42,381 nt of DNA, from the NCBI GenBank assembly GCA_027858315.1, contig JAQICV010000088.1, positions 1-42,381 on the forward strand, written 5' to 3'. This stretch comes from Candidatus Woesearchaeota archaeon. Its GTDB lineage: Archaea > Nanobdellota > Nanobdellia > Woesearchaeales > UBA583. Made by a program: the position numbers and the translations under genes. The notes below the pieces were generated by a model, which saw only the letters and a program-made list of their open reading frames with translations, did no database searches and had not been told where the DNA came from. This document shows positions 1,737-34,654 of this stretch, one piece after another. Positions within the stretch are counted from its first letter, which is position 1, and each line of letters starts with the position of its first letter.

Positions 1737-4700
1737 ATGGCATTGGTAAAAAAATTGAAAAATGGAAATACAATAACCCCCATACAAAGTGTGGAGGATT
1801 TTTTAGATAAAAAATTAGAAAACACTAAATTTACTAAAAAAGCCCTTCCTCATGCTCAAAAAGCTGCACAAAAATTTAGAGACCTATATAAAGAATTTTA
1901 TAATACTCCTAAATTTGGTGAAGTTTACCAGTATGATAAATTATCCAATAAATACACTGTTAATAAAGAACAACTTCCAGAGGATTTAAGAGGATATAAT
2001 TGAGAAGGAACAGATAAACCTGTTAGTAAAAATATATTAGGACAATATTCAACTGGAAATGAAGAAGAATCTAATTCTTTAATTGCCTCTTGATTATTAG
2101 ACTTTGAAACAAATAATCCTGCAGAACCAGTAGAGAAACAAAAAAGATCTATAGCTTCTTTACAGGATTTTATAAGACTAAGAGATTTTGGTGGAAAAGG
2201 AGATGTATTTGAATCTCGTTGGGAAGAAATGGGAGAAGAAGATAGAAAAATAAAAACTCTTGATGCTGCTAAAAGAGCTGCACAAGATTATTTAGATGAA
2301 TCTTCTACTAATAAAGATAAATATAATTACGAAAAAGTAGAAGAAACTCAGAATCTATTAAGTATTATAGAGAATGGTGATTGAGATTTATTTGTAGATT
2401 CTGCTAATAAATTAGGTTGAGACCCAACTAATCTTAGTTATAAAGATAGAGTTGAAGAAGAGCCTGCAGATTCAGAAGAAAACCAACTAAAAAGAAAAAT
2501 TGAAGCTTTAAGAGAGAAAGGTTTGGATGACCAAACTATTGGAGCTTTAACAGCTAGTGGTTATAATAATATTGTAGAAGACTATAATCCTTCAGGAGAA
2601 GAATGGTTTTCTAATTTCTTAAAAGAAAAAAATTGGTTAGTAGTACAAGATAAAATGGGCAATAAGAAAATTCTTAATAAAGGAATGTCTATTAAGTCTC
2701 ATTTATTTGATAATCCTCGATCTGAGGGATATGGACATTATATTAGTTCTGATGATGTAGGAAATGTAAAATTCTTTTCCCCAACTACTGAAGGATGAAA
2801 TAGAGAATATTTTAAAAATCCAGTCGGAGATGCCTTTGGTTATAGAGGATTAGAAACAAAATTACCAGAAGAATATGCTGCGTGGAAAGCAAAAGGATGG
2901 CAATCTAAAGACAAAGAAGGTAATATTGCTTTAGATAAGTTTGGTTTTGCAGATTTTACACAAAAAATTACTTTGGAACATCCTACTACAGATGAACTAA
3001 TAGAATTACAGTGGACACCTAAAGGATATATAAAGCAAGGAACAGAAGATCCTTTTGACATAGATATATCTGGTTATACACAGGATTATAAAGAAATGCC
3101 TATAAGTAATATGTTAAGTGCAGAAGGTGATCCTTACTTAAATATACAAGGAACTCAACAATTTAATAACTGAGAAGAACTAGAATCAGAACTTTCTTTT
3201 ATTTTAGATCCAAATAATCAAGTAGGGAGAACTGAAGCAGTAGATTATGATAGGATGGCTAGAGTTATATCAGATTTAAGATATAAAATAGAAAATCCTT
3301 CTTCTATGGGAGAGAGGTTAAAAGCTCTTGATTTTTATGAAAAAATAAAAAATATGGGTCTTGGTGCAGCTATTAAACAAATACAAAATAGTGCCAAAGA
3401 ATTAGGAGGTCTTTCTAATACAGAAACTCCAACTTCTATTAATGTTAATCCAAATTATTCAATTAATTCAACTACTACTAAAGGATTTACCTTTAAAAAA
3501 GGTGGTGTATTGGACTCTTTACAAAAAGGTGGTGTACTAAAGTTCAAAAAAGGTGAAAGTATGCCTATGTCTGAATACTTAGAAAAGTATGCAGGTAAAA
3601 AAGAAGAGAAAAAAGGTAAGAAAGAAGAAGAAAAAACTCCTATTAAAGATGTTACTGGAACTTTAAAGGACATGGATGCTTTAGATGTAAGTTCTTTAGC
3701 AGCTACTGGAGCTTCTTTTATTCCTGGATGAGGATTTTTTGGGGGACTTGCTTTAACTGGTATTGATGTTGCTAGAGGACTTAGAGATGATGATTCTACA
3801 GGAAGAATTATAGGAGAAACTGCTTTAAATCTTGGTTTTAGTCTTGCTAGTTTAGTTGGATTTGGTGGATTAAGATTGTTAAAGGGAGCTTCTAAAGCTG
3901 CAAAAACAACAGACAGAGTTTTAGATACAGGAAAAGCTCTTAAAAATATCCAAAAGTTAGAAAAAGTAGGAGGAGCTACACAAGATGCTACTAAATTAGT
4001 AAAAGGAGTATCTTCTGCAACTAAAAAATTAGGAAAGGAAAGTTTAGAGTCATTTGGAGAAAGAATTTCAAAATCTAATATAAAGAATTTATCTTTAAAA
4101 GATAAAGAAATTCTAAAAGATTTAGGAATAGCAGTTAGAAAAAATGGTGCTTTAGTACATGAAATTCCTGGAACAGTGGGACAAACTTTAAAACAATCTT
4201 CTGTTAAAGAAATTATTAAGGGTTCTAAAGAAGCTACTTTAAGTTTCCAGACTCTTAAAACAGGTGCTTATGCACAAGAATTGGCAGGTATTTCTAAAGT
4301 AGCTAAGAAACTTGTAAAAAGTAAAGCTGTTAAAAAAGGACTACAAGTTGGAATGCTTGGTGCAATAGGTGTTCCTGCTGTTAAGTCTGCTATTAGTATG
4401 ACAGGGGACATCAAAGAAGGTGGTTTTGGAAATGTACAAGTAGGAGATTTACAAAGAGTTATGGCAGTATCTTCTTTAGGAAGACAGACTTGAAGAAACT
4501 TTAAAGATGCTAAAGCAGTTAAAAGATTTACTAAATCTACTTCAGTAGTAGATGATTCTTTTACTTTAAAAGCAGGTAAAAAAGAATTTACTTTAGATAA
4601 ATCTATAAAAATTCCTCAGAAAGTAAAATCATTAAAAACTCCTATAAAAGGTAAATATAAACCAGAACAGCTTAAAGAGTTTAAAGATGAATTAAAAACT

Positions 4701-6449
4701 TCCGGAATAACTAAAAAGAGTGATGTAAAAGAAATACTTAAAAGGCTAGAACGAAAAGGAGATGTCGTAGTTGTTACTAATAAAGGATCTCAATCTGGAT
4801 TAGAAATGGATGTAACTGCTGATAAATTCTCAGGTACTGGAGCTTCTGATTTTATTAGAGCAAAGAAAGCTTTAAATAGAGGATTAACTAGTTCAGGCTC
4901 ATTTGGAATGTGGAGATTAAATCCAGCCAAAGTAGCTAAAGTAAGAAATTTAAGAGGCAAGTTAAATAAAATTGATAGTGACTTAGGAAGTATTCCACAG
5001 GGAACTACACAATTTAAAAACTTACATAAACAACAAACTTCACTTATTTCTGAATTAATTGAAACACAAGCTCTTAAAAAAGGAGGGGTTCTAAAATTCC
5101 AAAATCCAGCAATTCCTTTATCTTCCTCAACTCCATCAACGATGTTAGGTGAAGTAGATGTTTTTGGAGTAGATAACTCTAAAAAAGGACTTATAGGTAA
5201 ATTACCAACTGACGAGAAGTGGCGAAGATTTAAAAATAGTTTGCCTGCACCTGGAAATTCAAACTTAGTAAATAAGAATGGAACTTTAAATACTATAGAT
5301 ACACCTCTTACTCCTGTAATTAATGATAAACTAGAACTAAATAAAATAAGAGAGGTTACTCAAAGAGCAAGAAATAGTACTTTATTTGCTCCAGGAAAAA
5401 GACTTTCTTTAATGACTACAAAAGATTATACTCTTACTGCTCCTACTAATGAAACATTATCTGGTATTGGAGAAAGTGGTTCAACTAATTATACAGGATG
5501 AAAAGGGCCTTTATCTGATAGAAAATGAAAAGGATGGGATAAAATAAAAGATTATGCAAAAGATCCGTCAGTATGAGGAAATGTAGGTAATTTAGCAACT
5601 GCTTTAATCTATAATAATAAAATTGCTAAAAAACAACGAAGGGCTGCTGTAGAAGGAATTGTAAAACCTGATTTTATGAAAAGAAGATTTTACAGAGTTT
5701 CTTCAGATGTAGATGCGCCTTATGCTTCAGCAGCTTCTAATTATATAGGAAAGTCAGGAAGACTAGCGAGTAATTCTACTGATATTGAGTCTGCTAATGC
5801 TATTCAATTAGAAGGAGAAAAGTTAGCTTCTCAAGCACGGCTTGAAGGGTCTGTTGCTAAAGCTAATGATCTTATGCAAAAGAGAGTTCAGCAAGAACAA
5901 TCAGATGCTTCTGTAGATCAAGCTAATTTAGGCTTAATGAATAAATATAAAACAAATGTAGCAAGAGCTAGTCAACAACTTAGTTTAGTAGATTCTAAGA
6001 AATATAAAGCAAATGCCACTGCTATACAAGGTTTTACTAAGACACTTGCAAGTAACATTGAGAAAATCAAAGGACAACAATTAAGTAAAGATTATTATAA
6101 TATTATAAATGATCCTGAATATACTAAATTAAACACCAGTCTTTCTGACATTATGAGAAGTAAAGGAGACTATAAAACAGAGTGAGATGACTATATAACT
6201 AGTGATGAAGGAAAGACAGCTAGAGCTAGTAACCAAACATTTGAGCAGTCTAATCAATATAGCCAATGGAAATCTAAATTAGATGCTGCACAAAATCAAT
6301 TAAAACCATATATTGAGAAGATAAAAGCAGCTAGATTAAATTTACAAGTATATAATCCTTATTCTATGGAAAAAGGTGGAAAATTAAATCGAAGTATTTT
6401 GAAAAATAATGAACTTGCTTTAAAATCTTTGATAAAAATATTTAATTAA
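1737..6449 (+). CDS. Giant structural/cargo-like protein (1570 aa), TGA read as Trp
   Basis: One continuous frame if TGA is Trp; it ends at TAA 6447-6449. I count about a dozen in-frame TGA codons, for example at 2001, 2796, 3171, 3729, 4491, 5499 and 6183, in contexts that suit Trp; TGG is also used. The N-terminus starts MALVKKLKNGNTITP and is helical and charged. At about residues 587-608 there is a Gly-rich basic repeat (KKGGVLDSLQKGGVLKFKKG), again KKGGVLKF at about 1113 and EKGGKL near the C-terminus. Two hydrophobic Gly/Ala-rich segments (about 655-682 and 697-715) could insert into membranes. The remainder is Lys/Ser/Ala-rich and probably helical. No enzyme motif is visible. By position and the shared KKGG motif I infer a virion-internal or tail-associated cargo protein. 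The stop overlaps the next ATG as TAATG. Confidence 0.8.
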
Positions 6450-8305
6450 TGAAGGTAAATATAAATAAATATCAAAATGGGGGAGGATTTGCTACTTTCC
6501 TCCCCATTATTAAAGGTGGGAATACACCTACTCAAAAAACTTCCAAAAGATCCACTACAAGTAAAAAGGAAGAAGAAGAGGAAGCTGGAATTGTAGATGA
6601 TAAATTATATGCAGAACTTATAAAAGAGGGTTTAAGAAATGATGTTGATATGTTTATAGACAAATTGATAGAAATAGAATCATCTGATTTAGCTTATACA
6701 GATCCTCAAAATAGATTAAGAATGCAGAGACTTTTAGAGAAAGATATTAATAATATCTTACAACAAAAAAGTTATTGAACAGATTCTATTAATAAAGCTA
6801 AAGAAGCTGGGGGATTAAATGAAGTAGCTGTTGGAAGTAGTGGAGAAGTCTTTGTGAAAGATAAAAAAGGAAAAGTTGAAGCTATTTCTACTTCTGAATA
6901 TAAACGAAAACATGAAGGAACTCCTGTAATGACAGTAGCAGAATTATTAAATGCTAGACAATTTAATCCTGATTTAGCATTTAATTCAGAAGTTTTTTCT
7001 GTAGCACAAAGTGCAGTGGGATTAAAGACTATTACAGACCACGCACAAAAATTAATGGAGACTTTAAGTGATTATTCTGAATCTTCTGATCTTGTATATG
7101 ATAAAAAAGATTTAAGACAGCAATTAGAATATTTAGAAGCACAACCTGCATCAGAGTCTGTTATTAATGCTATGAAAGATTTAGAGGAGGTTTTAAATAC
7201 TCCTGGAGATTATGCTGAGGTGAAAACATCTTATACATCTAAAAGAAAAAATATAGACAGAGCTTTAAATTATATATGAACTTCTATAGGACAAGGTGCT
7301 CAGAGAAAATTAAATGCTGTTGGAGCAGTAAATAATCTAGAAAATCCTAAAGAGATTCTTTATAATATGTTATATTCTTATACAGAAGAAGACACAGATA
7401 AAACTATATCACCTGTATCAGAAACTTCCGCTACAGGAAGTAGTCAAGTAAAATCTTTATCTGCTTTTCAAATATTAAATAAAGGAGTTTTAAATAATTC
7501 TTTAAATACTTTTGCATTAAATGAACCTGAATTAGGTATTGTATTAAGAGGCTCTATAGGAACTGAAGGAGTTCTAGTAGGTCAAGATGATAATGCTATT
7601 GGACAAACTACTTTAGGAAATATTTTTTCCAAACATGGATATTCTAGAGTTTTAGATACAAGTAAAGCTTTCTTTGGAGATAAAGAAATTAAATTACAAA
7701 ATCAAAATCAGATTATACATGATGGGTCTACTACAGCTAGAACTTTTTTACCTGTTAATCCAGATGGAACTCTTGATTATGGTTCTTTTGAAGTATTTAA
7801 AAAATTATATGCTGAATATGAAGCTAAGAAAGACACTGCTTCTAAAGAAGAGTTAGAAAGAATATTTAATGAAGAGGGATTTAATGTTACTATTGATGAA
7901 GATGGAAATGAAAAATTTCTTAGGGAAAGTAAGTTAGTTAAACCATTTTTAGCTATGTATGGCTGAACAAATAGTGCTTCAGGTCTTACCGATGATAATA
8001 GTGGTGCAAAACAGCTTTCAAAAAATGAACAAAATCAATTAGAACCAATTTTTAATGATATTTGGACAATAAGAACAAATGAAGGAGTACAAGATTTTAC
8101 TCCAGATAAAAGTTGGCATAATGAAAAATATTATAAAGGACTTATTCTTGTACCTTATAGAGATAATGCAACTGCTATTGTAGATGCTATATCTAAACAA
8201 GGAGCTACAACTCCAGTCCCTACATTACAAACTGTACAACATAATTATAAAGAAATGAATAAGCCAACAATTAATGGCAATGCTAAGGCTTTAGAAAATA
8301 ATTAA
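6449..8305 (+). CDS. Cargo-like phage protein (618 aa), TGA read as Trp
   Basis: Frame 6449-8305 contains three in-frame TGA codons (6776, 7277, 7964) and ends with TAA. The start ATG overlaps the preceding TAA (TAATG), typical of coupled translation. The N-terminus KYQNGGGFATFLPII is of a kind I associate with crAss-like cargo proteins. An FATFxPII string recurs at the N-terminus of the lysozyme-like protein encoded at 33800-34591. A basic-acidic linker (about 35-48) follows, then helical regions and a mixed C-terminal region. No catalytic motif is recognisable. The gene sits directly before the helicase-containing giant gene, one base apart, so it is probably part of the same transcript and the same particle compartment (inference). 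Confidence 0.75.
6477..6507 (+). other. GC-rich hairpin just inside the 618-aa gene
   Basis: ATGGG(G)GAGGA at 6477-6487 pairs with TCCTCCCCAT at 6498-6507: ten pairs with one bulged G. It lies 28 bases after the start codon. It uses TTC CTC CCC codons, which are rare in this AT-rich genome, as if pairing rather than codon preference were kept. The function is unknown; control of translation is possible. Confidence 0.4.
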
Positions 8306-8306
8306 T

Positions 8307-11300
8307 ATGGAAATAAATAAACCTAATGATATACTAGTTGCTACTTTAAATAATCCAAGAGCAACAATTTCAGACTTAAAATCTTCTGAATTTACTCCAG
8401 AAAATACATCATTATTTTCAAAAGATGAGTATAAAAGATCAGATTTTATAAAAGAAACATTTAAAGATAATAAAGGAAATTTTGATGAAATCGCTTTTGA
8501 TAAATTTTATGAATTAGCTTCTGTTAAGTATAATGATTTAACAAATAATAAATATATACAAGATATAGAAGAAACGCAATATGATCCATTTGACATTACT
8601 AGACCTATTGATTCTTCTACTTATAAAGTATCTGTAGAATATTCTCCTGATAAAAATCCTTTTAAAGAGAAGTATAGTCAAACAGGTATTAATAGTATAT
8701 CTGAATCTGATGCTTCTTTAAGGGAAATTGCTCAGACAAGTGATATTTATGATTCAGAAAAAGAAGAATGGTTAAATACTTCTGCTAATGAATTAGGTTT
8801 ATTAAATAAATTTTTTGGGGAAACTTTAGTGTATGCACAATGAGATGAAGATGGTACACACGAGGATCCTATGAGTGGTTATTCAGTTAATCATAGAGTA
8901 GGTGACTGAAAAATAAATAAAAGAGGTAATCTTTTTATAGAAACGTTAGGAGATAGAGAAGTTTATAATAAACAAGTAGTTAATCCAACGGACATATTAA
9001 CAGCCGATCATTCTTTAGTGAATAAGTTTGATTTTTTTGATGCTGATAATAAAGAAACTGCTGTTGGTAAAACTGCTGTAAAACTTGCTGCGAATATAGC
9101 TCCATTTTTAATTCTAGGAGTAGGTCGGCCATATGCAGCAGTAAAAGCTGCTATTTCATTAGCTTCTGTTTTACCTACTTTTTATAAAGCATTTGAAGGC
9201 ATTCTTACTAATGATGAAACTTCAGATACTTTTGAACTAGCTACCTCTGCTGAAAATTACATGGCTAAATTTGCTGCTCGTTCTTTATCTGATGAAGCTC
9301 AGAAAAGTATGTTCAGTGGAGAAGCTATTGCCCAAATGACAGGAGATATATTTTCTCAAATTTACGAACAAAGAGCAGCAGCAGGATTAGCTAAAATCTT
9401 AAAATCTACTAAAGCAGGGCAACTTACAGTTAAACAAGAACAATTAGTTCAGAAAGTTAATACTAAGTTATATAAAGATCTTGCAGCAGGTAAATTTGGT
9501 ACAGGAAAAGCTGCCATGAAGAAGATGACAAAGATTGGAAAAGCAGCTATGAATAAACTTCCAGAAATGAAAACTTTCCTTAAAAATCAATCTCAAATGG
9601 CTAAAACATTTTCTTTGGGATATATGGCTTTGACACAAGCAGGTGATATATATGGACAAGCTGTTAATTCTGGATTTGATAGAAGAGTAGCAGGATTTGC
9701 AAGTTTAATGGGCACTGCTGGTATATATGGTGTAATGTCCAATAATAGAATGGGAGATTGGTTTTTAGACAAAACTACTGGATATACTACTGGTGTAAAT
9801 AAAGCAACTATAAGTAAAGCTGCTAAAAGGTTATTTCCAGAAGTAAAGAAAGGATTGGATCTTCCAACGGAGGCAGCTAAAAGATCTGCTTTAGCAACAA
9901 CTGTTAAAAAATTTAAGGCTAATTTAGATGATTTATTTTTTACTCCATCTTCTATAGGAGAGAATCTATTGAAACATGGTTTTATCGAAGGTGTAGAAGA
10001 AGTTACTGAAGAAGTAGTAATGGATGGAGTAAAAGGATCTATCGATGCATTAACTAGTTTAGGATTAGTAAAACAAAAAGGAGACTTTAATACAGTAGAA
10101 AATGTATTTTCTAAAGCAGGTGCTGAAAGATATTTAGCTTCTTTATTAGGAGGTTTATTAGGTGGAACTTTATTTGAATTCCATAGAACTAGACTAGAAC
10201 CTTGGATAAAAGGACAAGATATTCCTAAAGATGTAGAACAAGATTTATATCAAGTTATAGGTAATGGACATGCTGATCTTCTTATAAAAGAAGTTAATAA
10301 ACAAAGAAATAAATTAGGAAATCAATATATATCTCCTTTACCTGGAGAAGAAACTAATCCAGAAGCAAAACCAGGACAATCGCAAGCAGATGTAATAGCA
10401 GATGTTTCTATCTCAATGATTAAAAATGTTGAGGGTATGATGCGATCTAATGACATTATCAAAACAGATGATGCTGTTATTGAACAAGCTATGAGGGATG
10501 AAGTTATTATCAAAGATTTAAGGAAAGCTAAAGGAAGTGCTCCTATAGGAATAGAAGGTATTATAATTGATGATTTTAGAAAAACTGCTGCAGAGATAGC
10601 TTATTATGCAGGAGAAATAGAGAAATATAAAGATGATGCTGAAACTGTAAAAAGATTAAAAGGAGAACAATCAGAATTTATCAAAAGAAAAGATGATATT
10701 TTATCTGGTTCTTTAAATGCAGAATATTTCGATGAAATAATGGTTTATTTTAATAAGCATATAAGCAATAATTATGCTGTTTTGGACAAGGCCGCTTTTT
10801 CTGAGGGTGCATATAAAAAAGACTATTACAGTCTCCCAGAGACAGGTGCAGGGCTCACAAAAGAAAGAATTAATCAGGAATGAAAACAATATGTGGAATC
10901 AACAAATTTAAGAGAGAAATTAAAAGTTGCTACTTCAGTTTATAAACAACATGAAAAGAATTTAAATAACGTTTTAAATGAGTATGTTGATAGTGGATAT
11001 TCTAAACATAGAAAAGATATGTATGAGAATGTCCTTAAATTAAGTGAACTTACAAAATCTTTTAATGATGCAGATCCAAAAGAAAGGGAAGCTCTATTAA
11101 ATAATTATATTATCATAGCAAAAGATATTGAGGCTAAAACTGGTAAAAGATTATTACCTTGGGATAATATGAAGACTGATTTTGTAAAAGAACTTATAGA
11201 AAATAAAGTAATAGTAGGACCTAATAATCAATCTATTAATAATTATTTGGGAAATAATGAACAAAAAAGAGAAACATTTACTCAAATAATGGAAGCAATA

Positions 11301-14300
11301 GTGGAAACTTATCCAACATCTGTTATTAGTCCAAATATGCTTTCTACTACTTTTGATCAAGCTATAGGTACTCATAATTCAGAAATACAAAAAAATATAG
11401 ATTCTATTATTGCTGAAAATCCAGATTGGGAAAATGATGAAGAACTTTTAAAGCAAATTAAATCTCTTCAGGATTTAAAATTAGATGTTTATTTACTTGC
11501 ATATTCTGATACACCAGCATTTAAAGATAAAAGCAAAGAAAATAGAGCAGCTTTATTACAAACTCATAATAATATAATTAATGAACAGACAGCTAAAATT
11601 ACTTCTATTGAAAATTGGCAAAAAATTCCTGAGTTAGTAACGGAAAAAGAAAATCTTGAAAATTCTTTAGTAAATGCAGAAAAAGTTTCCATAGAAGATT
11701 TTTCAAATCTTAGGTTAAAAATAGTAGAAGAATTAGAAAGTTATGCTAATTTATTAGGAATAAATACTCATGAAGTAGGATTAATAAATTCTATGACTCA
11801 ATTTTCTTCAGAATTAGATAAAATTAAACCTGCTTCTACTGAAGATTCATTAGAGAGTATTTTATCTTCACCTTTATTTAGTATTTATGAAAAATATAAT
11901 TATAATAATCCAGAATTAATTACAAGTATTCGCAATGGAGAATTAAATAAAGATAACGTTGTATCTAAATTAAATAATTTCTATACTCTTATAAAAGATA
12001 AGAAAGATGCTTTTACAAAATATGAGGAAAAAGCTAATGAATTAGAAAAAGACCTAAATACTCCAGGAGATATATTCTCCTTAAAAAATTATGCTTTGGA
12101 AGCTATTATTGCTGAAGTTAAGAATGGAAATTTAGACCAAGAACTTAGTTCTGCAATGGAAGAAGAAATAGAATCTGAAATAAATTATATTAGAGATACC
12201 TATTTTAAGTATGATAATCTAACAAGAGATCAAATTCTTGATATAATCAGAAATGGAGATTCTTATAGTAAAATAATGGAAGAAGTATTCCAAAGATTTG
12301 CAGAAGAAGATACTTTTGAGGATTTATTAGAACAACTTCCTTCTTATATTAATACTATGGATGAAGTAGATTCTTTAGCTCCTTCAATAAATGATTTCTT
12401 AGGTGGATATAAGAATAGTGATTCTATAAAAGAGTTACTAGAATTAACAAATAATTCTTTCATACCTAATACTATATATGATTATCTACAACAGTATGAA
12501 ATTTATCTTAATGATAATAAGCCAAGAAAGAAATCTATATTTCAGATTTTAAAAGAGGAAGAATTATCCTTATTCCAAGCTTCTGATATTACAAATTATC
12601 TTTCAGAAGGAATAAGAAATTCTGACATGCAGAGTGCTATTAATATGTTGAAAATGTTTAGAGGAACTGTAGAAGCAGCTAAAACCTCTGAATTAAGTGT
12701 AGATAATCCTTATGGATTTATTACTACTAGACAAAATTTTGCTAAAAGAAATGGATTAAAATCAGATATTTTAGATTTAAAAACATTTCCTTCTGATATA
12801 GCAGAATTAGCTAGTAAAGATCTAGAAAGAATTGAGAATAAATTACTATTTTTAAAAGAACTATCAAAACAAAATTCTGCTAAATCTTTCATAGAGCAAG
12901 AAATTATAAGAGAAAATATTAATAAAATTTTAGTAGAACATTGAGAACAATTAGAGGGATTAAATTTAAAGTATAATAGTAAAAATATTGTACCTAATCT
13001 TGATGATATATTTTCACAAGAACTTTCTGATGAAGAAAAACTTCTAAGAATTAAAGAAGAGTTATATAAATATCATAAAGGTAGTTCAGAAGTAGACAAG
13101 AATAATATTATGAAAATCTTGTTAAAAGAACAATATTCTTTTAATAATCAAGTAGATGAATTGGGACAAGTAGATAAAGAAACTACTGATATTTCAAGAC
13201 ATTTCTTTATTAATCAATTTGCTTCTGCTTTAGTTTTAAATAATAGGGATTTTAATATTAAATTATTAAATACGATAAAAAGTGATTTTGATAAAGCTCC
13301 TTTCTTTACACAGGAAATTGCTCTAGAACCACTTTTTGCTTCACTAATGTCACCTGAATTATTTGCTACTATAGCAAGAGAATCTGCTTTGCCAGAAACT
13401 CATATAACAGACTATATTACGTATGTATTAGGAGGAGCAGGAACAGGAAAATCTTCTGTACTTTTAAAATCTTTAATTTCTTTTATTAAAGGTAAAAATT
13501 CTAATATGTCAGTATGATATTCTGCACCTCATAGTGAGCAGGTTGCTGCATTAAAAGAAAATGTTGGTTATGATAATATTACTAAGAGTTTAAATAAGTC
13601 AGATTTATTTAAAGCATTAGGTATTTATAATACTATCTTGGAAATAAATAAAGAGGCTGATAAAACTGAAAGTGACATAGTAACTTTAAAAGATAATAGG
13701 TTACATATTAATTATGAAAAGATTTCTTTTGAAGAATTTCCAAATAATCTCCCTGATTTAATTTTCATTGATGAAATAACTCACTTTAATGCTCTTGAAT
13801 TAGAAATAATTAATGAAGTTATTAAAAAAGCTTATGAAAAAACTGGTAAATTTACTAAAGTCATTGGCGCAGGAGATCCTACACAAAAGGGAGCTTTATT
13901 AAAGGGATCTTCTTATAATGTTGATAGAGTTTCTGGTATTTTTACTACTCCTTTAGATATAACAATTAGAGCTTCAAATGTTCAGAAAAGAGTGAATAAT
14001 GATACTATATCTGGAATAGTTAAAGCTTTAAATAAAGAGTATAAAGATGAAAAAGACTTGCAAAAAGCACTGTCAATCATTAGAGGAAAATTAAAACTGC
14101 GATATTATCTTGGAGAAGATACTATTACTGGAGATTTAATAACAAATAAAATAAATAAGAAGTTATTAAAACCAATTAAAAATAGTTTAGAACAAGACAC
14201 AGAAAAAACCCTTGGTATTTTAGTAACACCAGAATTAGAGGAGGAGATTAAAGGATTGATAGATGAATTAGGTATTAATGAAGAGCAAGTAAAATATTAT

Positions 14301-16892: not shown

Positions 16893-16904
16893 AAAAATAA
16901 AATT

Positions 16905-19900: not shown

Positions 19901-22900
19901 CTTAAAATTTAGAGGAAATAATTCTCCAAAAAGTTTTTTAGACATTAGAGAAGAATTCTCTAAAGAAATGAGTGGAAGATTATCTTCAATGGCTAAAAGG
20001 AATGTTGTATTTACGTCTACTATAGAACTGCCTGATAAAAATATAAAATTAGGTATACCAGATAATGTAAATTTAGCAACTATTGAGGATGCTACAGCGA
20101 TATTATATAATATATCTGGACAAACTTATAAGCAAGATTTACATGATGGATCAAGTTTTATCTTAGCTCCTTATAGTAAGATGATAGAAAATTCTTACCC
20201 AGGAAAAAGTTATTTAGGAACTAAAAAACAATTTGGTACTTTTATAACCCCTTATGGCAGCTCTGTTAAAAAAGATGCTGAAATGGTAATAACTAATGAT
20301 TTGATTATTAATTCTAAAAATGCTAAAATTAATTTTAAGAATAAACAGAAACAAATGTTAGGTATTCCTATTAATGATTTAAATATTCAAATTAATAACC
20401 AAACTTTACCTGATAATATTTTCTATGATAAAAAGGATATTATAAGAGTCTCTAGTTATAGTTTAAATAAAGTAGGGAATAGTCTTATTTTATCACAAGT
20501 TATTGATAAATGGAATGGTAGTTTATGAGAAGCCCAAGAAGCTAAAAGGGATATTAAAATAAAAACTTTGTATGATATATGGAATGCCTTTGGTGCGGAA
20601 CATTCTTTAAATTCTGAATTTGACTTTAATGAAGGATCTAATGATTTTATATATGATTTAATAACTTCTATACAATTTGATGAGAATGGAGATCAAGTAG
20701 AAGAAGGAAAATATCTTTTAAAAGATAAAATGATTCATGTTTTATCTAATAAAACTGCAATAAAATCTGGAGCAACTAATTTAAACCCTAAAAATGCTTG
20801 ATTTGATAATTCTAGTTTATCTTATACTACTTATCAAAATAATTATATGGGGCCTCAGTTAGATGCTAATCATGAAGCAGATGCTTCTAAAATTAGAGAG
20901 ATAACACAAGTTATTTCTGCATTAGCACAGAATGAGAGAACTGCGGGATTAGCTGATAAAGTATATAATGATATTGCAAATATAATTGAGAAATCTCTTT
21001 CTGAATATACAGAATATTTAGATAAAGATCCTAAAGAAATTGCCTCTTACTTTTCGAAAAAATTATATAATTCGTTAAGTAAAAGTGATAATAAAAATTT
21101 AGCGCAATCTATTATAGAGACTTTTTCTAAAGATTCTTTAATTCCTTTTAGTAACCAACATTTTTTCCAAGATTTTGTAAAAGATATGATTACTAGAATG
21201 AATACTGATTTTATTACAAGATATTATTCTGGAATAGGAGCTGTGTTAAATCCTTCTCATAATATAATTCAATTATATGAAGATCAAGATGGAAATATAT
21301 CTACTCAGAGGGATATTACTAAGGAGGCTTTAGAAAGTACTATAGAAGGCAATAATATAGAAGAAATTATAAATGCCTATATACAAAATAAATTTGTTCC
21401 TAAAGAAGTTAGTATTAATTCTATTGCTCCTGGAGATGCTATTATATTAGATAATAAAATAGAGATTTTAGATAATATTGATACTTATTATAATATTAAG
21501 AAAAAACTTAAAGGACAAACTGTTCTTAAGTCTTATGCTACTCCGAGAGACCTACGTCCTGAACTATTAAAGTATTCAACTGAAAAAGGAGCTGTTATGT
21601 CTAATACTTTTGATTCCGATCCAGTCAGACTAAAATTCTCTTATGAGAAATTAATGCAAGGAGACTTAGAAGCATCTGATGAGGATTATAAAGTATTACA
21701 AGATTTTTCAGAATTTTTTGCTATTGAATTTAAATCAGAAGAATTAGGAGTATATTTAAATAAATGAAATAAAAGAAATCATGAATTAATTAGTAATAGA
21801 TTAATTATAAATTCAGTAGATTCTATAAAAGAAGAAAAAACAGGTAAATATGATTTTTCTAAACTATTTATAGGAGAAAATAAGAAAGATTTATTATTTG
21901 GTTTTTTTGATGATGTAAAGAGTAATTTCTCTCTAAAGAATAATAATGTATCTAATATTGTTAAATATTCTTTTAAACCAGCAGAAATTATAATGCCAAA
22001 CCTTTATAAAGGAGTCTTTGGATTAGGAAATACTAGTATTTCTGAGATTAGAAAGAAAGGATCTGAATTTTTTAGAGCTCCATTAGAAGAAGAATTTGAA
22101 GTTTCTAGTATAAAAGCTGATTTAAAAATCAATACTCCAGAAGGAAATAATCCAATCTATATTAAATATGTAGAAGATATTTCATTATTTAAATCGAAAA
22201 AACATCCATTAATAATAGATAATTCATCTTATAATAAATCTAATAAAGTTAGATTAGATGCTTTTGGACAACCATTATATGAAGTTCCACAAGATGCTAT
22301 TTTAAATATAGAAGGAGGAAAAGATATTTTATATCTAAAAGCAGCTTCTATAAATAAAAACAATAAAATATTTTTTCCACAAGTAAAGAAAAATTTAAAG
22401 AATTTTATAAAATCTTTTAATGGAAAAATATCTTCTATTGTTCCTTTATTAAATAATAAAGTAGATATAAAATTGGAATCTGAAGAAATGTGGAACAGTA
22501 ATGAATTATCTTACAACATTTTTAAAAATTTCCATAATTATAAAGGAATAGCACCATTAATTGAAGATCCAGAATGGTTAGAAAATAATCTTGAGGATAT
22601 TTTATCTCAATTATCAAGTACAAGATATGTTTCTTGAGAAAAATCTTTAGAAGAGATTGTAGCAAGAATACCTTCACAATCATTGCAATCTGTAATGGAG
22701 ATGCGAACTGTTGCTTATAAAAACACTGATTCTAATGATGTTTATGTATCTGTATGGCAGATATTCTATCAAGGTAGTGACTTTGATATTGACAAAGCTT
22801 ATATTATGGGTTATGGTATTGATCATAGTGGGCAATATGAAGGATGATCTAATTTATCTACTTATTCTACTAAAGAACAATTAGATATTATTGAAAGATT

Positions 22901-25583
22901 GCCTTTACCTAATGGAAAAGAATATTCTTTAGTAGACTCTGGAGGATATAATTTAACTGATTCTTTTAATATTTTTAAAGAACAGTATAAGAATTTAAAT
23001 AATGTAAATGAACTAGATGTAAATACTTTGTTATTATTTGAGTCTATGTTAAAAGAAATTGAATATATAGAACCAGATATTACTTTAGATATTATTTCTG
23101 AGGAAGATAAACAATTAGCTTTAGAATTTATTAGCTTAATTAATGACCATAATTTATCAGAAGAGTTTATAGATAAGGAAAATGCTGTTAAAAATTCTAT
23201 TATAGCAACTACGAAACGAATAGTATCAGCTCCTAGTAATAGATTATTAGCAAGTTCTCCTATTGATGATGCTTTAGAAGCCCATAAAAAAGGTGCAGAA
23301 AAAGCAGCTACTCAATATAATATAAAAGAAAGAGATCTTTCTTCTTATGATATGATAAGTTATTATAAACAACAGTATGATGCATCTGTAGGAAAAGATG
23401 ATGTAGGTATTGGTGCTAATGGATTGAAAGTTTTCTTTAATTTGTCAAATTATTTTAATAACTGGTTTGATACAGAAGGATATTTATCAGGAAATTTATT
23501 AACTAGTCCATACTCATTTAAAAAGTCTTTATTTATAAATGGAAAAGATTATAATATTCATTCTATATCTGATACTAGAACTTTAAAAGGATTTACAAAT
23601 CATTTAAAAGAAGTTTATCAGTATAAAGATGATGAATTAAGTTTGCTTAATAATGATGCAGCTTTAATTATTTCTGGATTTGTTTCTGGAGCTACAGATA
23701 ATGCAAAAGAGTTGATTATGGCTAAAATAAATGCTATAGTAGAATTATCTGGAATGCATTTATATATGTATTCTTTAGGGTTTACTCCAGAAGATGTGGC
23801 TCTGTTTATGAATTCTGACTTAGCTAGATTTATCGCTAGAGAATTACAAACTAATAAATTTGATGTAGCAAGTACTGAAGAATCTCATATTTTATCCCTT
23901 ATAGATACTTATATAAAAGATAATAATTTAACAGAAGATCAATTAAAAGAAGTAGAATCTTTTCGAGATATTTACTACGGAGGACAAGAATATAAAATAT
24001 TAGCTTCTATACTTAAGGTTAATCAAAGAACTAGAGCTAATATAGCAGAATTACATAAATTCTTTTCTCGATTTGAAAATGCTATGTTTACTAGAGAACA
24101 TGCTGTATTAGGTATGAATTTGAGTAAACTGAAAACATTTGGAGAAAAATATGTAAAAGTACCAAAATATTCTGAACTTTATAAGAAAGAAAAAGATTTA
24201 GTAGATACTATTATTACTAAGAATGAAGTCTTAACAGAAAATGAAAGAGATTATGTAACAGAAGTTTTATTTAATTCTAGAAATATAAAAGTAGTTGATC
24301 CTAATAATGAATCTGTTAATATTACAACTTCTATATTAGGAGGTGGATTTGATTTTAGGCATTATTTAAATAGTAATAATGAAGAGTATATTGAAGCTAC
24401 AATAAATTATTATAATTTATTTAAAAATACTATTAATATATTTCATGTTATACAAAATTCTCCCCATTTTAAGCAAATGATTAATGGAGCATTTCAAACA
24501 CATAGGTCGTTAAATAAAACATCTAAGAAATATAATTTTATATTTTCTGATTTTAAAGATATACTTAAAAGAAAATCTCTTGAATTATATAATAATAATA
24601 AACAATTAGTAAAGTATAGTTTAGGAAACAAAGCTTTTAATGTTAAAGTAGATGAACAGACAATAAATAAAGCATCTATTACTTTTGATAAATTTGCTGT
24701 TAAAAAATGAATTGATAGTAATAATAGAATAAAAAGATATAAATTTAATGTAGTAGATCTTTTGCAAACTCTTGATAAAGATAACATTGTTTTATTTAAA
24801 AATGATTTTTCTAAGTTATATCCTGTTGGGTTATTAAAAGGAGGAATTTTACATTCTGATAAAACTATAAAAGTAACTAAACAAGATGAAAATCCTACCA
24901 TTATAGATTTATATACAGATACAGGAATAGCTAACTTTAAAGTAATAATGGAAGAGCTTTTATTGCCTATCTTAAAAAATTCGAGTAGGAGTTCTTTAGG
25001 AAGCTTTTTAAAAACTAGTACTGTAAAGAATTATTTGGGACAATTTACTTCTCAAATCATTCCAACTTTTAAAATTAGTGATTTAAATTCTCCTCAAAAT
25101 CTTGATAGATTTGAAGAACTATTAAATTCTTTTAATGATGTAGATAAAGTTATTGAACCTAAGAATAGAATATTTAATTCTGAAGGAGTGGAAGTATCTT
25201 GGAAAAATCTAATGTATCTTTATAATTTAATTGTTAATAATGATTTGTATGGCCCTAAAAGACTTACTCCTATTTTTGAAAACTTTATAAGAGAAGAGGG
25301 TCTTTTCAAAGATTATATAGAATTTTCTAAAAGAGTGGATGCAGGAGAAGTAGATATATTTGATAATGTATCTGAAAGAGATATTTTATGGTCTATATTT
25401 AATAGAAAAGGTAATCTGAATTTAAATGGGCAAACTACTTTTGTAATAAATAATAATTATCCTATAAATACTAGATTAGAAAATGTAAAACAAGTAACAG
25501 ATATGCAAATACAACAAGATATACATAATACTCTCTCTTTAATTGAGTATAAAAACCTAATTATTAATTATAAGTGTTTTTAG
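16905..25583 (+). CDS. Virion-type DNA-dependent RNA polymerase (2892 aa), TGA read as Trp
   Basis: One frame from ATG 16905 to TAG 25581-25583 with about a dozen in-frame TGA codons (for example 17985, 18987, 19815, 19821, 20526, 20799, 21765, 22635, 24708). The key evidence is GSDFDIDKAYIMGY: the DFDID triad (residues 1959-1963, bases 22779-22793) matches the metal-binding DxDxD motif of the double-psi beta-barrel RNA polymerases of crAss-like phages (phi14:2 gp66 family, related to eukaryotic QDE-1-type polymerases). A block GPQLDANHEAD at about 1315, followed by TQVISALAQNE, is also of the kind seen in these proteins. Family members are about 2000-2500 aa, so this one is long. In the family the enzyme is carried in the virion and transcribes early genes on ejection. 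The start is the only ATG after the preceding stop. Confidence 0.85.
17157..17195 (+). other. Terminator-like hairpin inside the RNA polymerase gene
   Basis: GTCAGTAACTTCC (17157-17169) pairs with GGAGGTTACTGAC (17177-17189): 13 continuous pairs, one of them G-U, around a 7-base loop. It is followed by C and TTTTT. By form it is a good intrinsic terminator, yet it lies about 250 bases inside an open frame, which stays intact. It may attenuate transcription or structure the mRNA. Confidence 0.55.
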
Positions 25584-25586
25584 ATT

Positions 25587-28500
25587 ATGATTTGTTATTA
25601 TTATATAAAATTACCAGATGGCGGGAATATAAAAATTCCTGCCTCTTCTGGTATTTCTTCCTTAGATGAAGAATTAAACAAAAAAATAAAAGAATATAAA
25701 ACTTCTAATGATATAAATAATTCTGATGCTCTTTTAAATTATTTAACACAAGATTTAAAAGTTGATATACCAGTAGAAGATTTAAAAGAAATTTTAGTGG
25801 ATTCTAATGAAGATAATTTAATTAATAATATTAATGATTATTTAATTGATAATGGATCTTTAGGGAATCTATCTACTATTTTATTAAGAAAGATAACACA
25901 GGGCGAAACTACTTTTGAGTATATTCCACCTAAAAAAAGAAAGAATACAATTACTGGAAAAGAAAAAGTAGAATTAATAACTTTAAAAGATTTATTACAA
26001 AAATTACAAGAACCTATAGGACAAGATTATTTAGATAAGATAGATAATATAGGCATAATAAATAATATAAGTCCAGAAGAAAAACTTTTTGACTTAAATA
26101 ATAAATTACAAGAACTTAAAAATGCAGGAATAAATTCTAAAGTAGAAGTTTCTTTACATAATTTACTGAGTTCTGTTTTTAAAAGTTCTAATAAAAAACA
26201 AGCTTTATTGTATTCTTTAAATTTTTCCGGGAAAACAAGTGATTCTATTGTAGTAAGTACAGAAGAATCAATTGAACCTATAATTTTTTATAATGAGAGT
26301 AATTCTTTATCTTTAGCTTTAGGTATTTTTAAATACTTAGGAAAAAATTTAGATGAAGAAACTTTACAAGAAGTTTTAGAAGAATTTAATATTACACAGG
26401 AAATATCTCCACAAGATTTTTTTATGGGGAAATTTGTTAAAGATGAATATGTTCCAGAAGCATTAGCTACTTATTTAAAAGATCCAAAAATAAATCAAAC
26501 TCTAATAAATAGATTAGTTGAGGCTGTATTTATTAGTAACCAAAATTTTTATGGCTGAACTAATGCTCAAACCCAAGAGTTAATAAGTAATACTAAAGAT
26601 TTAATTAAATATATTGATTTAACTAAGTACTCTAAAGATCCTTTTTCCGAAGAAAAGGAATTAAATATTTTATATAAAAAAGAGTCAGAAGAGAACTCAG
26701 CTACTTTAGTAGATAATATTTCTAAAAGATTAAAAAACAAATCTATAAAGGAAAGAAGAGATTATTTTTATGCTCCTAAAGAGACTAAACAATTTTCTTC
26801 TGAAAACAATATTAATCATCAGCTAGATGCATATAACTTTATCCAAAGTAATCTATTATTTAAAAATGATTTAATTAAATTTCCAAGTATAGGAGAATAT
26901 GGAATTTATGTAGTTCCATTATCCATTAAATTAAATAAAAGAGGTCTGAGAATGACCGGATTGGGAGAAGTTAATGGAGAGTTTAAATTATTTTATGAAT
27001 ATTTTAATGATGATAATATTAAAATTGAATATAGAAAATTAGAAACTACACAAAATCCCCCTCAATTAGAAAATGCAGCTACTTTAGCGAAAGAAAATAC
27101 TATTTCAATTGTCTCTTCTGGTAGCACTTTTTTAGATTCAGAAATTGTGAAAAACAATGTCTCAAGAGGATCTACTGTTTTTAGTAAAAGAGGAAAAAAA
27201 GAATATATTAACACTGTTAAAGCAATACATCCGGGAGGTATAGAAGTAAATTCTAAAGGAAAATTCTTAATTCCTTTTGATAATATTACTAAAATAACTG
27301 TTCCTAATTCTGAACATTTTGTAGATAAAGAGTTTACAGATAATGACCGCAATAAATTTAGTTCCTTAAAAAATTATTCTGAGATCACTAGAAAAATATC
27401 TCCTCATTTTTACTTGGAGACAGGAGATTTAATTGTTTATGCAGATGAACAAAGTGATAGAATCAATAGAGTAGTGAGTACTTCTGATTTATATGTATAT
27501 ATGTTGATTAAAAACAAAAAAGGAGAACATTCTATACAGGAACTTCCAAAAGAAACTATTAGAAGTGCTTTTAAGAAAAATAAACCTTTATCTTTAGATG
27601 AAAGTTTTAGAATAGCTGCTTTTGATAATGTAGTTACTAGAGACAAGTCTATCTCTAAATATATTTACTCTTACTTTAGTAATTATGAATTAGCAAAAAA
27701 TGATGATTATGTGATCATTGATTTAGAAAACTCTTCTGGTATATTTCAAATAATAGATAAAAAGAATAATGTTTTTAATAAAATTGATATAAAAGCAGGA
27801 GAAAATAATTTATCTAATCATTATATTAAAATTGATGATACTTCTAAGTTAAAGAAATTTATAACTACAAGAGATATTTCTTCAGAGTATGCTGTAGATG
27901 TATCTGATGTAAATAATTGAAATATTGAAACAGAAAAACCTGATGGAGAATATTCTGAGTTAGCTTATTTTATTCCAAAAGGAACTGATATTTCTAGTAT
28001 GACTTTATTACATAGTAATAATCTTAATAAAGGATTTAGTGTTGAGGCAAATAAAAATATAGCTGTTCCCGATAATTATGTTAATGTAACTCAACAATTA
28101 AAAGAGCGGATAGCAAAAGAAACAGGGAAAGAAGTAGAAGGTTTATTTGTTCGTAAATCGGGAAGTTTTATATGAAGGAATGTTAATAGATTTTTTAGAT
28201 TTAAAGAATTTTCTCAGCTTTCTTTAGATCAAAAAGAATTCTTACTTCAAACAAATGCTTATGTGACATTAACTAATAGAATAGGTTTAGAGAATAAAAT
28301 CTATAGAGTAGCTAATTTAGGAGAAAATTCTGTTACTTTAGAATATAATACTTTTTCAAATACAGGAAAATTCTTAACTATATTGAAAGATGTATCTAAA
28401 GAAGAATTCTTTAAACGAGTCGGTATTTATTACATAATGCATGGAAATGATAAAATACCTTTTATTAAAAGAGAGCAAATACAGATACAAAAAAACAATC

Positions 28501-29123
28501 AAATTGATCCTGATATATCTCAAAGAAAAGATATTTATACAAAAGTATCTTCTTTATTTTCTAATATATTTAAAATAAAGGTAGATATTTCTTCTGATTA
28601 TACAGAGATGAATGATAAGAAAGCTTGAGTAGAATCAGAATCAGGAAAAGAACCTAAAATAGTTTTAAATTTAAACAATAATAAAGCTAATGATACGGAT
28701 TTAGTACATGAGTATTTACACTTATTTTTATTTGCTTTAAAATATAATAGTCCTTTTTTATATGAAGAATTACTATTAGATTATAAAAATAAAAATAGTA
28801 TAGAGTATTCAGACTGGAATTTAATTGAAGAATCTTTAATAGCAAAATTATCAGATTTTATGAATAATAAATCTAAACTTCCTTTAGTAAATTTTAAGTA
28901 TTTTTCTCAGGCATTTTCAGAATCTTTGGATGCTATGAAATTAAAAGATGTGTCTATAGAAAATAATATTTTTGGTATTTTAAATAAATCAATGAAAGAA
29001 ATATTTCCTGAAATAGACAGTAAAGTGATGAATGAAGGAGTAATACTTTTTGAAAGTAATTTTAAAGATTGGTTCTCTGATAAGATAAAAAATGATAAGA
29101 ATTTTAAAATGGAGTGTATATAA
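25587..29123 (+). CDS. Giant protein with C-terminal zincin (HExxH) domain (1178 aa), TGA read as Trp
   Basis: The ATG lies one codon after the TAG stop of the polymerase gene and in the same frame. The frame runs to TAA 29121-29123 with at least four in-frame TGA codons (26556, 27918, 28173, 28626). The first 900 residues are not recognised. Near the end, VHEYLH gives H1041-E1042-H1045, the zinc-binding and catalytic set of zincin metallopeptidases. E1081/E1082 in NLIEES, about 36 residues later, are candidate third ligands. Zincin domains have been described in giant proteins of crAss-like phages, to my recollection. The protein could process other cargo proteins or host targets after ejection (inference). 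It ends with the TAATG overlap that starts the next gene. A strong hairpin lies near its start. Confidence 0.75.
25612..25653 (+). other. Strong mRNA hairpin downstream of the polymerase/zincin TAG junction
   Basis: TACCAGA (25612-25618) pairs with TCTGGTA (25647-25653). Inside it, GGCGGGAAT (25620-25628) pairs with ATTCCTGCC (25635-25643, one G-U) around loop ATAAAA. Sixteen pairs in AT-rich coding DNA, with rare GGC, GGG and GCC codons, begin 28 bases after the TAG codon. It may affect initiation of the zincin gene or read-through of TAG. Confidence 0.5.
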
Positions 29124-32100
29124 TGGATGCAAGATGTGTATATACAGTAGTTATAGACGGTAAAGAAGTTTCCATGAATTTGAAGGAACTTACAGAACAC
29201 TATTATAAAACTACTGATTTATTAAAGAGAAGTAGAATCTTTAGTTCTGAAGAAACTCAATTAGCTGCAATAGAACAGATAACAAAGAATGTAAAAAGTA
29301 AAGAATCTTTAAAAGCAGAAAATATAACTTTAGTAAGAGACTTTGCAACTAAAGAACAACCTCAACTTATTAGAGAACTAGGTTTATCTGAGCAAGATAG
29401 ACTAGTTCCTGAATATGTAGAAAGTAATAGAATTATAAAATATATAGAAGATAAAATTAACACAGGAGAAGAACCTATTTTAGATTCTAAGGAACATCCT
29501 GAGTTAAATAAATATATGCAATTAGATTCATTGTCTAGATATACAAAAGAAAAAGTAAATCATTATCTAAAAGAAATTACTGAACTAATAAAATTTGATA
29601 AAAAGACTATGATAGTTGCTAGAGACTTACATGGAATTTTAGTTGCTGTTTCTAAGTATAATGGAAATTTTGATCATCCCATAGTAGAGAAAGCTTTAGA
29701 ATCTTTTTATGAGAATAATCAAGAAATATTAGAGGGAGATAAAAGAATTTGGAAGAAAGTTTTAATCAGTACTTTAGATAGAGTACATACATATTTGAAA
29801 AATAGAGGAACTATTTTATCTTCTGTATCTCTTTTGTCTGAACAAGGTATTACTGATTTAGGTACTACAATTGATTCTATTGTTGTAGATTCAAATGGAG
29901 ATTCTCATATATTTGATTTAAAAGTTTCTAAAAAATCTTTTGATCAATGGGATATATCAAAAATACAAGAAACAGATTGAATATTAGCTTTAAACAGACA
30001 ACTTTTAGGACAATATACAGAAATAAAAAACACTTCATTAAATATAATTCCTATAGAACTTGGGGATTTTACTAATGGAAAATTAAATCCAGAAAATCTA
30101 GGATTTAGTACAGTACAAATTAGGACTGCTGATCAACCTACTTTGTGAGAATCTGGAAAGCTTAAAAAAATTGCTAAAAAGATAGTTCCTGAAACTTTAT
30201 TTGCTTCTTATGATCCATTAAGGAAGAAAGAATTACTTACGGATTTAGAAGTACTATTACCTGGATATACTGTTAAAACTGCAAAAGAAGAAACTGATAT
30301 TGAAAAACTAGTAGAGAAGGCTAAAAAGACTGGTAAATGGTATTATTATAATAAATATGAGTTACCAGAAATGCCTAAAGGATCTATTGTTATTAAAGAT
30401 ATAGATTCAGAAGGACGTACCAAAACAACAGAACAAAAAGAAAAAGAGTTTAGAAAAAAAGTAACTCCTGTATTAGCTAGAGTTTTAGAAGATGCAGCAA
30501 AAAATGTATCTGTATTAAGGGAGAAGATAACAAGTGCTATTGCAGATCCAGATAATAAAATATTGACAAGTAAGAACACAGAACAAAAAGCACTTGTTAA
30601 TAATGTTTTAAAAGATTTTATACATGGTACTTATCGAGTAGTAAAAGATACTCAAGAAATGACTTCTTTAGGATTTATAGTTTTAGAAAATACTAAAAAT
30701 GGAAAACTTTCTGTAATTAATATTTCCGCACATGGACAGAAAGCTTCTTTTGATGAAGATTTAATTTATGAAGAAGTAGAATATATTAAAACATTTGCAT
30801 TTCTAAATAGATTTTATAATGAACTTGGTTTAAATAGAACAGAGATTGAAGAGATTATAATACTTAATTTAGATGGTTTACAGGTAGGTGGAAAAGATGT
30901 AGAGAAAATGTTTAATAAGTTTACTGAGTTAATGCAAGTTAAAAAACTTACTAATAAACTAACACATAAGAATATAACACCTTTATTAGAAAGAGCTTGA
31001 AATTTAGTGAGAAGTAGTTTAAGAACATATTCAGGAACTGATAGAACTCAGGTAGAAAATATTCTAAAACCTATATGAAATGAATCTTTTCAAAATATTT
31101 CTTATGAAAAACTTAGAGAAATACAAAAAAGTATGTTTGAAGCATTTCCTGATTTAGTTGACCAAACTCGACAACCTTCAATATCTTTTAGTGACCAAAG
31201 GCAATATTTATTTGCTATGATACAAGTATTATTATTAAGTAAATCAGGACAACTCCCAGAAGGAGACTTTTTAGGTATGAGAGATTTTAGTATAGGATGG
31301 CCTGATGTCAAAAGTTTAGTTGCATCTTTATATAGTAAATCACAAGAAAAATATAATAAAGAAGGCAAAAAAATTCTAGGTGTTATGGGTTCTTTAAGAT
31401 TATCTACTCCTGATAAAATTGGTTCAATAGATTTACAAAGTATAAATAAAATTATTTCTTTAACCAATAGTAGAATTAGGCAATTAATGGTAAAGCAATC
31501 TAGTAAACTAAATGGAATCACCACAGAATTTTATGATAAAATTGGGTATTCTAAAACTGCTAGAAATTTTATAGGAGAGTCGCGTTCTAAATTTAAAAAT
31601 ATTTGAGTATTAGATGATACTGGAGACATTTCTATTAAGTGGCAATTAAAAAATCCATATGAAAATAATATAGATAATGTTATGACTGATGCAGAAAGAG
31701 AATATGCTAAAAAAATTCTTTTTGAGATACAAAAATATATGTTGAATCTTAAAACAAAAGACATAGAAAGTATTGATATTTCTACATTAGAAACAATTAA
31801 AAAAACAGACAAAAGCCAAGAAATCTTAAAAGCTATAGAGAGTGAAGAGTATTTTAAAATGCCTTTAATTAGATCTCAACAATTAGATAGATATGGTAGA
31901 GCTCTAAGTGGTGGTATTAAAGGTATGTTTCAATCTGGAAGAGAATTATCTAATGAATTTGAAGATTTTATTGATACTCGAGAATTAAGTAAAGAAGATT
32001 TAGAAAATATTAATAAGCAACAAAAAGGGTTGTATGAAATGCCTGATGTATATGCTATGCAAAATGATGAATCTAAAGCAGAAGCAATACGAAGACATAA

Positions 32101-33757
32101 GGACACAGTTTATTGGGAATTAAATTTAGACACAATAGCTCATAAAGTTGCATTTACTAAAATCCGAAAAAATTTATTAGACCACAAACTCCCTATTATA
32201 AGTGCTTATATTTGATGAATGAAATTGCAGTCAGGGAAAAAGAATGAAGATATGTCTAAAGAACTTGATTATATTATCGATCAGGTAACTGTAGCAGCAT
32301 TAGATGGCCCAATAGTAGATGAAGAATTTAAAGACCCCTCTATTGTAATAGCAGCAGTTAAAAAAATTACTACTATTGGAATGCTTGCTTTTAGACCTGT
32401 TTTAATGGCAAAAGAATTAAGTATTGGATTACTTAAAGGATTTAATATAGCAGCTTCTAAAGTCTTTGGGAAAGATTTATTTGATTCAAGGTCATTGACA
32501 CTTGCATTAGAAAAATTAGGAACTGCCAAAAAAACTTTCGCAGCTGAATTTAATTTAATTGATAGATTAAATCATTATTATGGAATAGCTAATATGGACT
32601 TAAATACTATTGCTGAAAAAATGCAGACTGATAGAAGAGGTTTTATGAAAGGTTTAAGTCCTTGAATGTATGCAATGAATACTATACCAGATTATTATAA
32701 TAGAATGGCTTTATTTTTAGCTAAAATGATTTATGATGGATCTTATGATGCACATGAACTTGTTAATGGGGAATTAAAATACAATACTAAAAAAGATGCC
32801 AGATTTTCTTATTATTTTGAAAATAGACATAAATATGTAAATGATGATGGTAATTATACTCCTGCATTAAAGGATGAGAAATATAATAGACAAAGAAATT
32901 TATATTTATTATTAGCAAACCAACTTACTATTGAAAGAACTGGGTTAACTGATGAAAAGTTTTCTGAAACTATATTAATAGACCAAGCATATATAGAAAA
33001 AGAAAGGGATAGTTTTAAATCTCTCGCAGATACTGCATATGGATATTACCATAAGGATTCTCAGGCTCTTTTACATAACATGGCTTTTGGGATTACATTT
33101 ATGCAATTCATGCAATATTGACCAGGCAAAATGCAAATGTGGTTTGGAAAGCCAGTTTCAGCAGAAATAAGTCCTATAGGAAAATTTGCTCAAAAGTTTA
33201 TTACTGATGATGATGGAAATAAACAATTACTATGAAGAGAACAAATATTAGATGAAGAGGGTAATTTCACAGGTGATTTTAAGCCCACTACTATTAATAC
33301 AGGAGACCCTTTAATTGAATGACAAGGATCTCCTCAAGAAGGACTTTTCTATGCCCTAGGATATACTATTCAAGATATTTTTAGAGGTAATTTTTCAGAC
33401 ATTAAAAAAGATGAGAAGGAAAGATTAGGGAAACTTCAATTTGCAGCTATAGATGGATTATTGTTAGTATTATTCTGAGGAATGATTGTAGCTATGATTA
33501 AAGGAGCTAGAGAAGATTGAGGAGAAGATGAAGTTGGAGAAGATATGTTAAAATTTGCAGAGGCTGTTTCAACAAAAGTATTAAATGAACAAAATGTATA
33601 TCAAAATACTTTGGGAGCATTTAGTTCAGAACCAGCATGACTTACTTATTCTACAAAAGTAGCAGGAGATACTCAAGATGCTATTACTGGAACCGGCAGT
33701 TTAAAAAATATGGTAGGACAAAATTTCAGAGCATTTGAAATCTGAGATATGGAATAA
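29123..33757 (+). CDS. Giant protein with PD-(D/E)XK nuclease domain and C-terminal membrane segment (1544 aa), TGA read as Trp
   Basis: The start ATG overlaps the preceding TAA (TAATG); a GTG at 29114 in the same frame is a less likely start. The frame ends at TAA 33755-33757 and holds about fifteen in-frame TGA codons, including two in a row at 32213-32218. Residues about 248-290 fit the PD-(D/E)XK nuclease fold: D251 and D256 in TIDSIVVD, then HIFDLKVSK with D265 and K267, followed by a helix with LNRQLLGQY. A hydrophobic stretch near 1443-1462 (LLLVLFWGMIVAMI) looks like one transmembrane helix, shortly before the C-terminus. The long middle is helical and unrecognised. As the last gene of the late cassette it is probably a packaged, ejected protein acting on DNA; whether the nuclease targets host or phage DNA cannot be told. 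Confidence 0.75.
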
Positions 33758-34649: not shown

Positions 34650-34654
34650 ATTAT

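Follow-up and report, generated by a model that had tools for sequence, protein, structure and literature searches.

Genes and features of the window

The window is the whole 42,381-nucleotide stretch analysed here, contig C88 of a 1.77-Mb genome bin. Six tandem frames occupy positions 1737–33757 of its forward strand. They contain 56 in-frame TGA codons beside 41 TGG, with no in-frame TAA or TAG, and every one of them has TAA or TAG as its stop codon. The original prediction described frames interrupted only by TGA, more than fifty times, at exactly these coordinates, and held that reading TGA as tryptophan yields continuous proteins of 618 to 2892 residues ended by TAA or TAG; our count agrees on both points for all six frames. 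Read in either of the other forward frames, these genes are full of stop codons (23–299 TAA and 10–125 TAG per gene); the absence of TAA and TAG from the late frames is therefore not due to chance.

The first late protein is P0001 (1737..6449, 1570 amino acids), which contains 12 TGA and 10 TGG codons, ends with TAA and is homologous to a protein of G008, a 178-kb IMG/VR contig, at 23–24%. P0002 (6449..8305, 618 amino acids) has three TGA and two TGG codons and matches G008 at 36%. Two giant proteins follow. P0003 (8307..16892, 2861 amino acids, 11 TGA, 8 TGG) matches G008 at 33% over 2869 columns and includes an AAA/helicase-like region at residues 1697–1891. P0004 (16905..25583, 2892 amino acids, 11 TGA, 12 TGG) matches it at 39% and carries a DFDID motif near residue 1960, which is also in the consensus of four relatives; the likeness to crAss-like RNA polymerase is one of motif only, and comparison of P0004 with the PDB by sequence gave no RNA polymerase match among solved structures. 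The homologue of P0004 in the phage record MT835470 is broken near DFDID (about 41960–43030 of MT835470 locus L001), as described for Zeta RNA polymerases, and the copy in the window is intact. The block is completed by P0005 (25587..29123, 1178 amino acids, four TGA, two TGG, 26% to G008) and P0006 (29114..33757, 1547 amino acids, 15 TGA, seven TGG, 36% to G008). The final TGA of P0006 lies four codons upstream of its TAA, and the G008 counterpart of this gene has 12 TGA.

Pfam and PHROGs searches gave no match for most of the length of the giant late proteins. A short motif resembling K-x-Q-x-G-G/D/N is repeated at the starts of late proteins and inside them (P0001 and P0002 in the window, and L038 9221–10739 on the minus strand); it is possibly a tag for virion targeting or cleavage. 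Upstream of the late frames, three forward-strand ORFs (113..1675), one of them with a DUF192 domain, contain no TGA and two TGG, too few tryptophan codons to judge.

The minus strand carries an early/middle block of 23 small genes (33800..42201). Their products include Thy1, a dGTP/dATP diphosphohydrolase, an AAA kinase, an RNA-ligase-like protein and a weakly transglycosylase-like protein. These genes had been described as intact in the standard code, using TGG and leaving TGA unused. This holds for sense codons, where 37 TGG and no TGA are found (Fisher p = 2e-11 against the late frames), but a single gene, the only one to do so on this strand (38651..38845), stops at TGA, in an ATGA overlap with the start of the next gene and with a TAG four codons further on. 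Between the convergent blocks is a hairpin resembling a bidirectional terminator (about 33761..33795), with a folding energy of -23 to -26 kcal/mol for both strands; it was not listed by a simple terminator scan.

Probable further contigs of the phage, and its relatives

Proteins of MT835470 were used to locate other phage genes in the bin. Contig C89 has terminase and portal genes, C43 has the capsid gene, and C25 has a gene for a family A DNA polymerase. Nine TGA occur in the terminase and portal stretches combined, and TGA is also present in the capsid pieces and absent from the DNA polymerase gene. The terminase, portal and capsid proteins on C89 and C43 are 42–59% identical to those of MT835470, PHROG matches are to terminase, portal and major head protein, and a search with the MT835470 terminase hits 124 records, many carrying the name Crassvirales. 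By homology of the large terminase, portal and major capsid protein the phage is placed in Crassvirales, which bears out the crAss-like identity proposed earlier. Two opposed gene blocks, one for replication and one for virion and transcription proteins, are a trait of Crassvirales; the blocks of the window converge at 33.76 kb, and the same arrangement is seen in G008 and MT835470.

Contigs C88, C89 and C43 correspond to three distinct parts of the G008 late block and are therefore most simply read as one genome. In C43 the capsid gene is found in four pieces (6371–10431), with a group I intron (7970–8268) and two endonuclease-like ORFs; the GIY-YIG/NUMOD endonuclease-like ORF has three in-frame TGA. 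Contig C105, from the same bin, was rejected as part of the phage; it comes from an unrelated phage that uses the standard code, and its DNA polymerase and terminase-like genes carry intein-like insertions.

The six TGA-recoded terminases form one clade with support of 99/100 in a tree built without the named Zeta genomes. This clade adjoins standard-code MT835470 and TAG-recoded MT835539, and lies apart from Suoliviridae and Steigviridae. Terminase identity to the nearest public contigs found is 61–70%. Relatives were found with profile A1 and with the phage terminase; a search with P0006 alone gave none, nor did searches of genome contigs. G008 and G007, although different IMG records, look nearly identical where both cover, with the same tRNA and the same match identities. 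The phage is likely to belong to the Zeta crAss-like group (proposed Echekviridae). Zeta traits are a genome of 145–192 kb, many tRNAs with suppressors, and introns; size and tRNAs are seen in the relative G008 and the intron-split capsid gene in the phage's own contig, its own genome being incomplete.

TGA codons and the UCA tRNA

An earlier alignment, with TGA translated as W, led to the same result as the one reported here but was biased by the query. Every TGA and TGG codon of the late genes was therefore masked before alignment with eleven relatives. Opposite our TGA codons these relatives have tryptophan in 88 of 208 aligned pairs (42%), and opposite our TGG codons in 108 of 196 (55%); for no other residue does the rate exceed 2.4%, the value for Tyr. 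The relative's own codon is TGG in 36 of the tryptophan pairs at TGA, 11 of these in standard-code MT835470. For the window proteins alone, 23 of the 49 covered TGA sites have tryptophan in at least one relative. Homology also spans both flanks of the TGA codons, for example across residues 8–1547 of P0006 aligned with G008, these codons are therefore not protein ends. The alignment that had been proposed as a check thus finds tryptophan in the TGA columns, and termination of homologues at TGA, which would have told against the prediction, is not seen. Since masked TGA columns are tryptophan in relatives, 36 times as TGG, TGA encodes tryptophan in the late genes of this phage. In-frame TGA at the tryptophan positions of homologues is what is expected of a phage with genetic code 4.

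TGA use is split between late and early genes. Over all phage contigs the ratio of TGA to TGG is 82:72 in late genes and 0:76 in early genes (p = 3e-19). In near-complete G008, TGA accounts for 220 of 281 tryptophan codons in the late block and 0 of 16 in the pre-late genes. The TGA share of tryptophan codons in the window late genes is 0.58, against 0.81–0.84 for other A-ending codons; in G008 it is 0.78, close to that contig's own A-ending codons (0.82–0.89). The low share may mean that the switch is more recent in our lineage, or that UGA carries a cost there. Two apparent cases of early recoding in G008 were discarded: the six TGA of the adenylosuccinate synthetase gene precede its real start, and many of the forward-strand TGA taken together (51/244) come from miscalled ORFs or homing endonucleases.

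Within the window the change in TGA use coincides with the convergent hairpin. The original prediction placed the switch precisely at this terminator and tied it to the transcription unit; the position stands for the window, but fails as a rule. On the forward strand of contig C3, which its neighbours in G008 mark as a late strand and which also bears a suppressor tRNA, the counted genes contain TGG 27 times and TGA not at all; a GIY-YIG endonuclease with three TGA lies outside that count. On the opposite strand of C3 the gene at 9221–9916 has an in-frame TGA with homology to MT835470 on either side of it, and an early-strand tail-lysozyme gene of G008 has three TGA and no TGG. With part of the late strand free of TGA and some opposite-strand genes that contain it, strand is only a rough proxy and recoding follows the class or timing of the gene.

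A tRNA search of the window found none. The search for a TCA anticodon beyond it, also suggested with the original prediction, located a 72-nt tRNA with ordinary arms on contig C3 of the same bin (C3:11163–11234). Of its two neighbouring genes, one matches a gene beside the TCA tRNA of G008 and the other a gene beside the TCA tRNA of G006, so the position of this tRNA is conserved. Because both flanking genes also flank TCA tRNAs in these TGA-recoded relatives, C3 very probably belongs to the same phage as the window; C3 and C88 have no overlapping ends, and they are joined on the grounds of their common relatives and recoding. The UCA tRNA expected of a genetic code 4 phage would thus be encoded by the phage itself.

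All three TCA tRNAs (C3, G006 and G008) have G73. G73 is the tryptophan identity base in bacteria, archaea use A73. The nearest non-suppressor by score is tRNA-Trp for the TCA tRNAs of G006 and G008 and tRNA-Gln for that of C3; the identity of the inserted residue as tryptophan therefore comes mainly from the codon test. An Rfam search beside the C3 tRNA gave no family except tRNA itself, and no PF00579 or PF00472 proteins (TrpRS and release factor) were found in the G006 and G008 records. The claim that late protein synthesis depends on a UGA-reading tRNA-Trp has gained a UCA tRNA that is very probably phage-borne and whose charging with tryptophan is presumed. G008 also has a tRNA with a CTA anticodon (L108 4197–4271), though TAG still terminates genes there.

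Interpretation and known systems

We are confident that the window is a piece of a crAss-like phage genome in which UGA serves as a normal codon for tryptophan in the late genes, those for terminase, portal, capsid and the giant virion proteins, and which includes a UCA tRNA; the charging, the timing, the competition with RF2 and the unity of the genome are parts of this reading that we infer. Early in infection the host would decode in the standard code. The early genes, with no sense UGA and few UGA stops, would be read almost alike in either code. The UCA tRNA would most likely be charged with tryptophan by the bacterial host's own TrpRS, as suggested by the G73 discriminator and by the records of relatives, in which no TrpRS is found. 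As the suppressor tRNA accumulates it would prevail over RF2 at UGA codons, and complete late proteins could then be made.

It is also conceivable, if unlikely, that TGA means tryptophan throughout the phage at all times, the early genes having merely not yet accumulated it, with no switch in time. TGA stops are indeed rarer in early genes than in a standard-code relative (5/59 against 15/45, p = 0.002, by heuristic gene calls), TAG stops are unchanged, and one early-strand gene of C3 contains TGA. Drift alone, however, predicts about 0.8 TGA in early genes, which share the bias towards A-ending codons (GAA 0.85, AAA 0.87) and yet have no TGA among their 76 tryptophan codons, and some genes still stop at TGA in ATGA overlaps. 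Readthrough, decay or assembly error as the source of the TGA codons can be practically dismissed, as can the decoding of UGA as Cys/Sec or Gly. Fifty-six TGA occur without any TAA or TAG, and the columns show tryptophan and no Cys or Gly signal. ARAGORN prints 'SeC' for the anticodon TCA, which is all that favours such a reading, and the C3 tRNA, with its 72 nt and ordinary arms, is unlike a selenocysteine tRNA.

The sharing of one bin by the phage contigs might suggest that the cell represented by the bin reads UGA as tryptophan, with nothing specific to the phage. This is very improbable, and for the bin itself it is refuted by its TGA stops (10 of 61 long ORFs end in TGA) and by its tRNA-Trp, which has a CCA anticodon and appears to have A73. 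No RF-1 family protein was found in the bin, in a search for which controls were positive in 10/10 bacterial and negative in 4/4 archaeal cases, and the bin carries archaeal MCM, RLI and DNA polymerase II. The bin is archaeal and, as far as sampled, uses the standard code. The phage encodes an N-acetylmuramoyl-L-alanine amidase, which acts on peptidoglycan. This enzyme and the G73 TCA tRNAs, set against an archaeal bin, mean that the phage is best seen as bacterial and its contigs as mis-binned.

If late genes are decoded after a switch, the order of the map may itself build the switch in, a suggestion we make tentatively and think rather less probable than not. The UCA tRNA would lie on the late strand in a TGA-free stretch, ahead of the TGA-rich virion genes; the early genes, which avoid sense TGA and, for the most part, TGA stops, would be legible in both codes, and the late genes would be unreadable until the tRNA had been made.

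With these results, the crAss-like groups that read UGA as tryptophan and carry its tRNA gain a further lineage with good support. Standard-code and TAG-recoded lineages lie close by, so that the gain and change of codes are open to study in one family. They also show that such phage contigs can end up in a genome bin of an archaeon, in which gene calling by the standard code would make their genes look broken.

Late-gene recoding in crAss-like phages, which the original prediction took as known, was published in 2021 by Yutin et al., who described phages with UGA=Trp and UAG=Gln, mostly in late genes, and suppressor tRNAs, as well as group I introns in the capsid gene and code changes over short distances, between close Zeta branches (PMC7886860). 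Our phage has late UGA reassignment, a suppressor tRNA and a capsid-gene group I intron in common with these, and differs as a further lineage that lies in pieces within an archaeal bin. Lera, a Zeta crAss-like phage of the proposed Echekviridae, is about 180 kb with 26 tRNAs, including tRNA-SUP-TCA and tRNA-SUP-CTA, and has TGA in terminase and structural genes (PMC12386605). G008, with 178 kb and 27 tRNAs by ARAGORN including TCA and CTA, is like Lera as described. The gut phage records MT835470 (standard code), MT835492 and MT835539 (both TAG=Gln) have the same gene order and homologous late proteins, and differ from our phage in code and by protein identities of 22–58%.

In the stop-recoded phages of Borges et al. 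2022, late and lytic genes reportedly bear the recoded codon, early genes being standard and late genes needing the suppressor; going by that description, the same early-standard, late-suppressor logic applies to our phage. A review links recoding to the genes for late structural proteins and lysis, taken as a single unit (PMC10136315), and UAG=Gln has been demonstrated by proteomics (PMC9523058). Late-gene UGA=Trp recoding in crAss-like phages is thus already known, and what is new here is the lineage.
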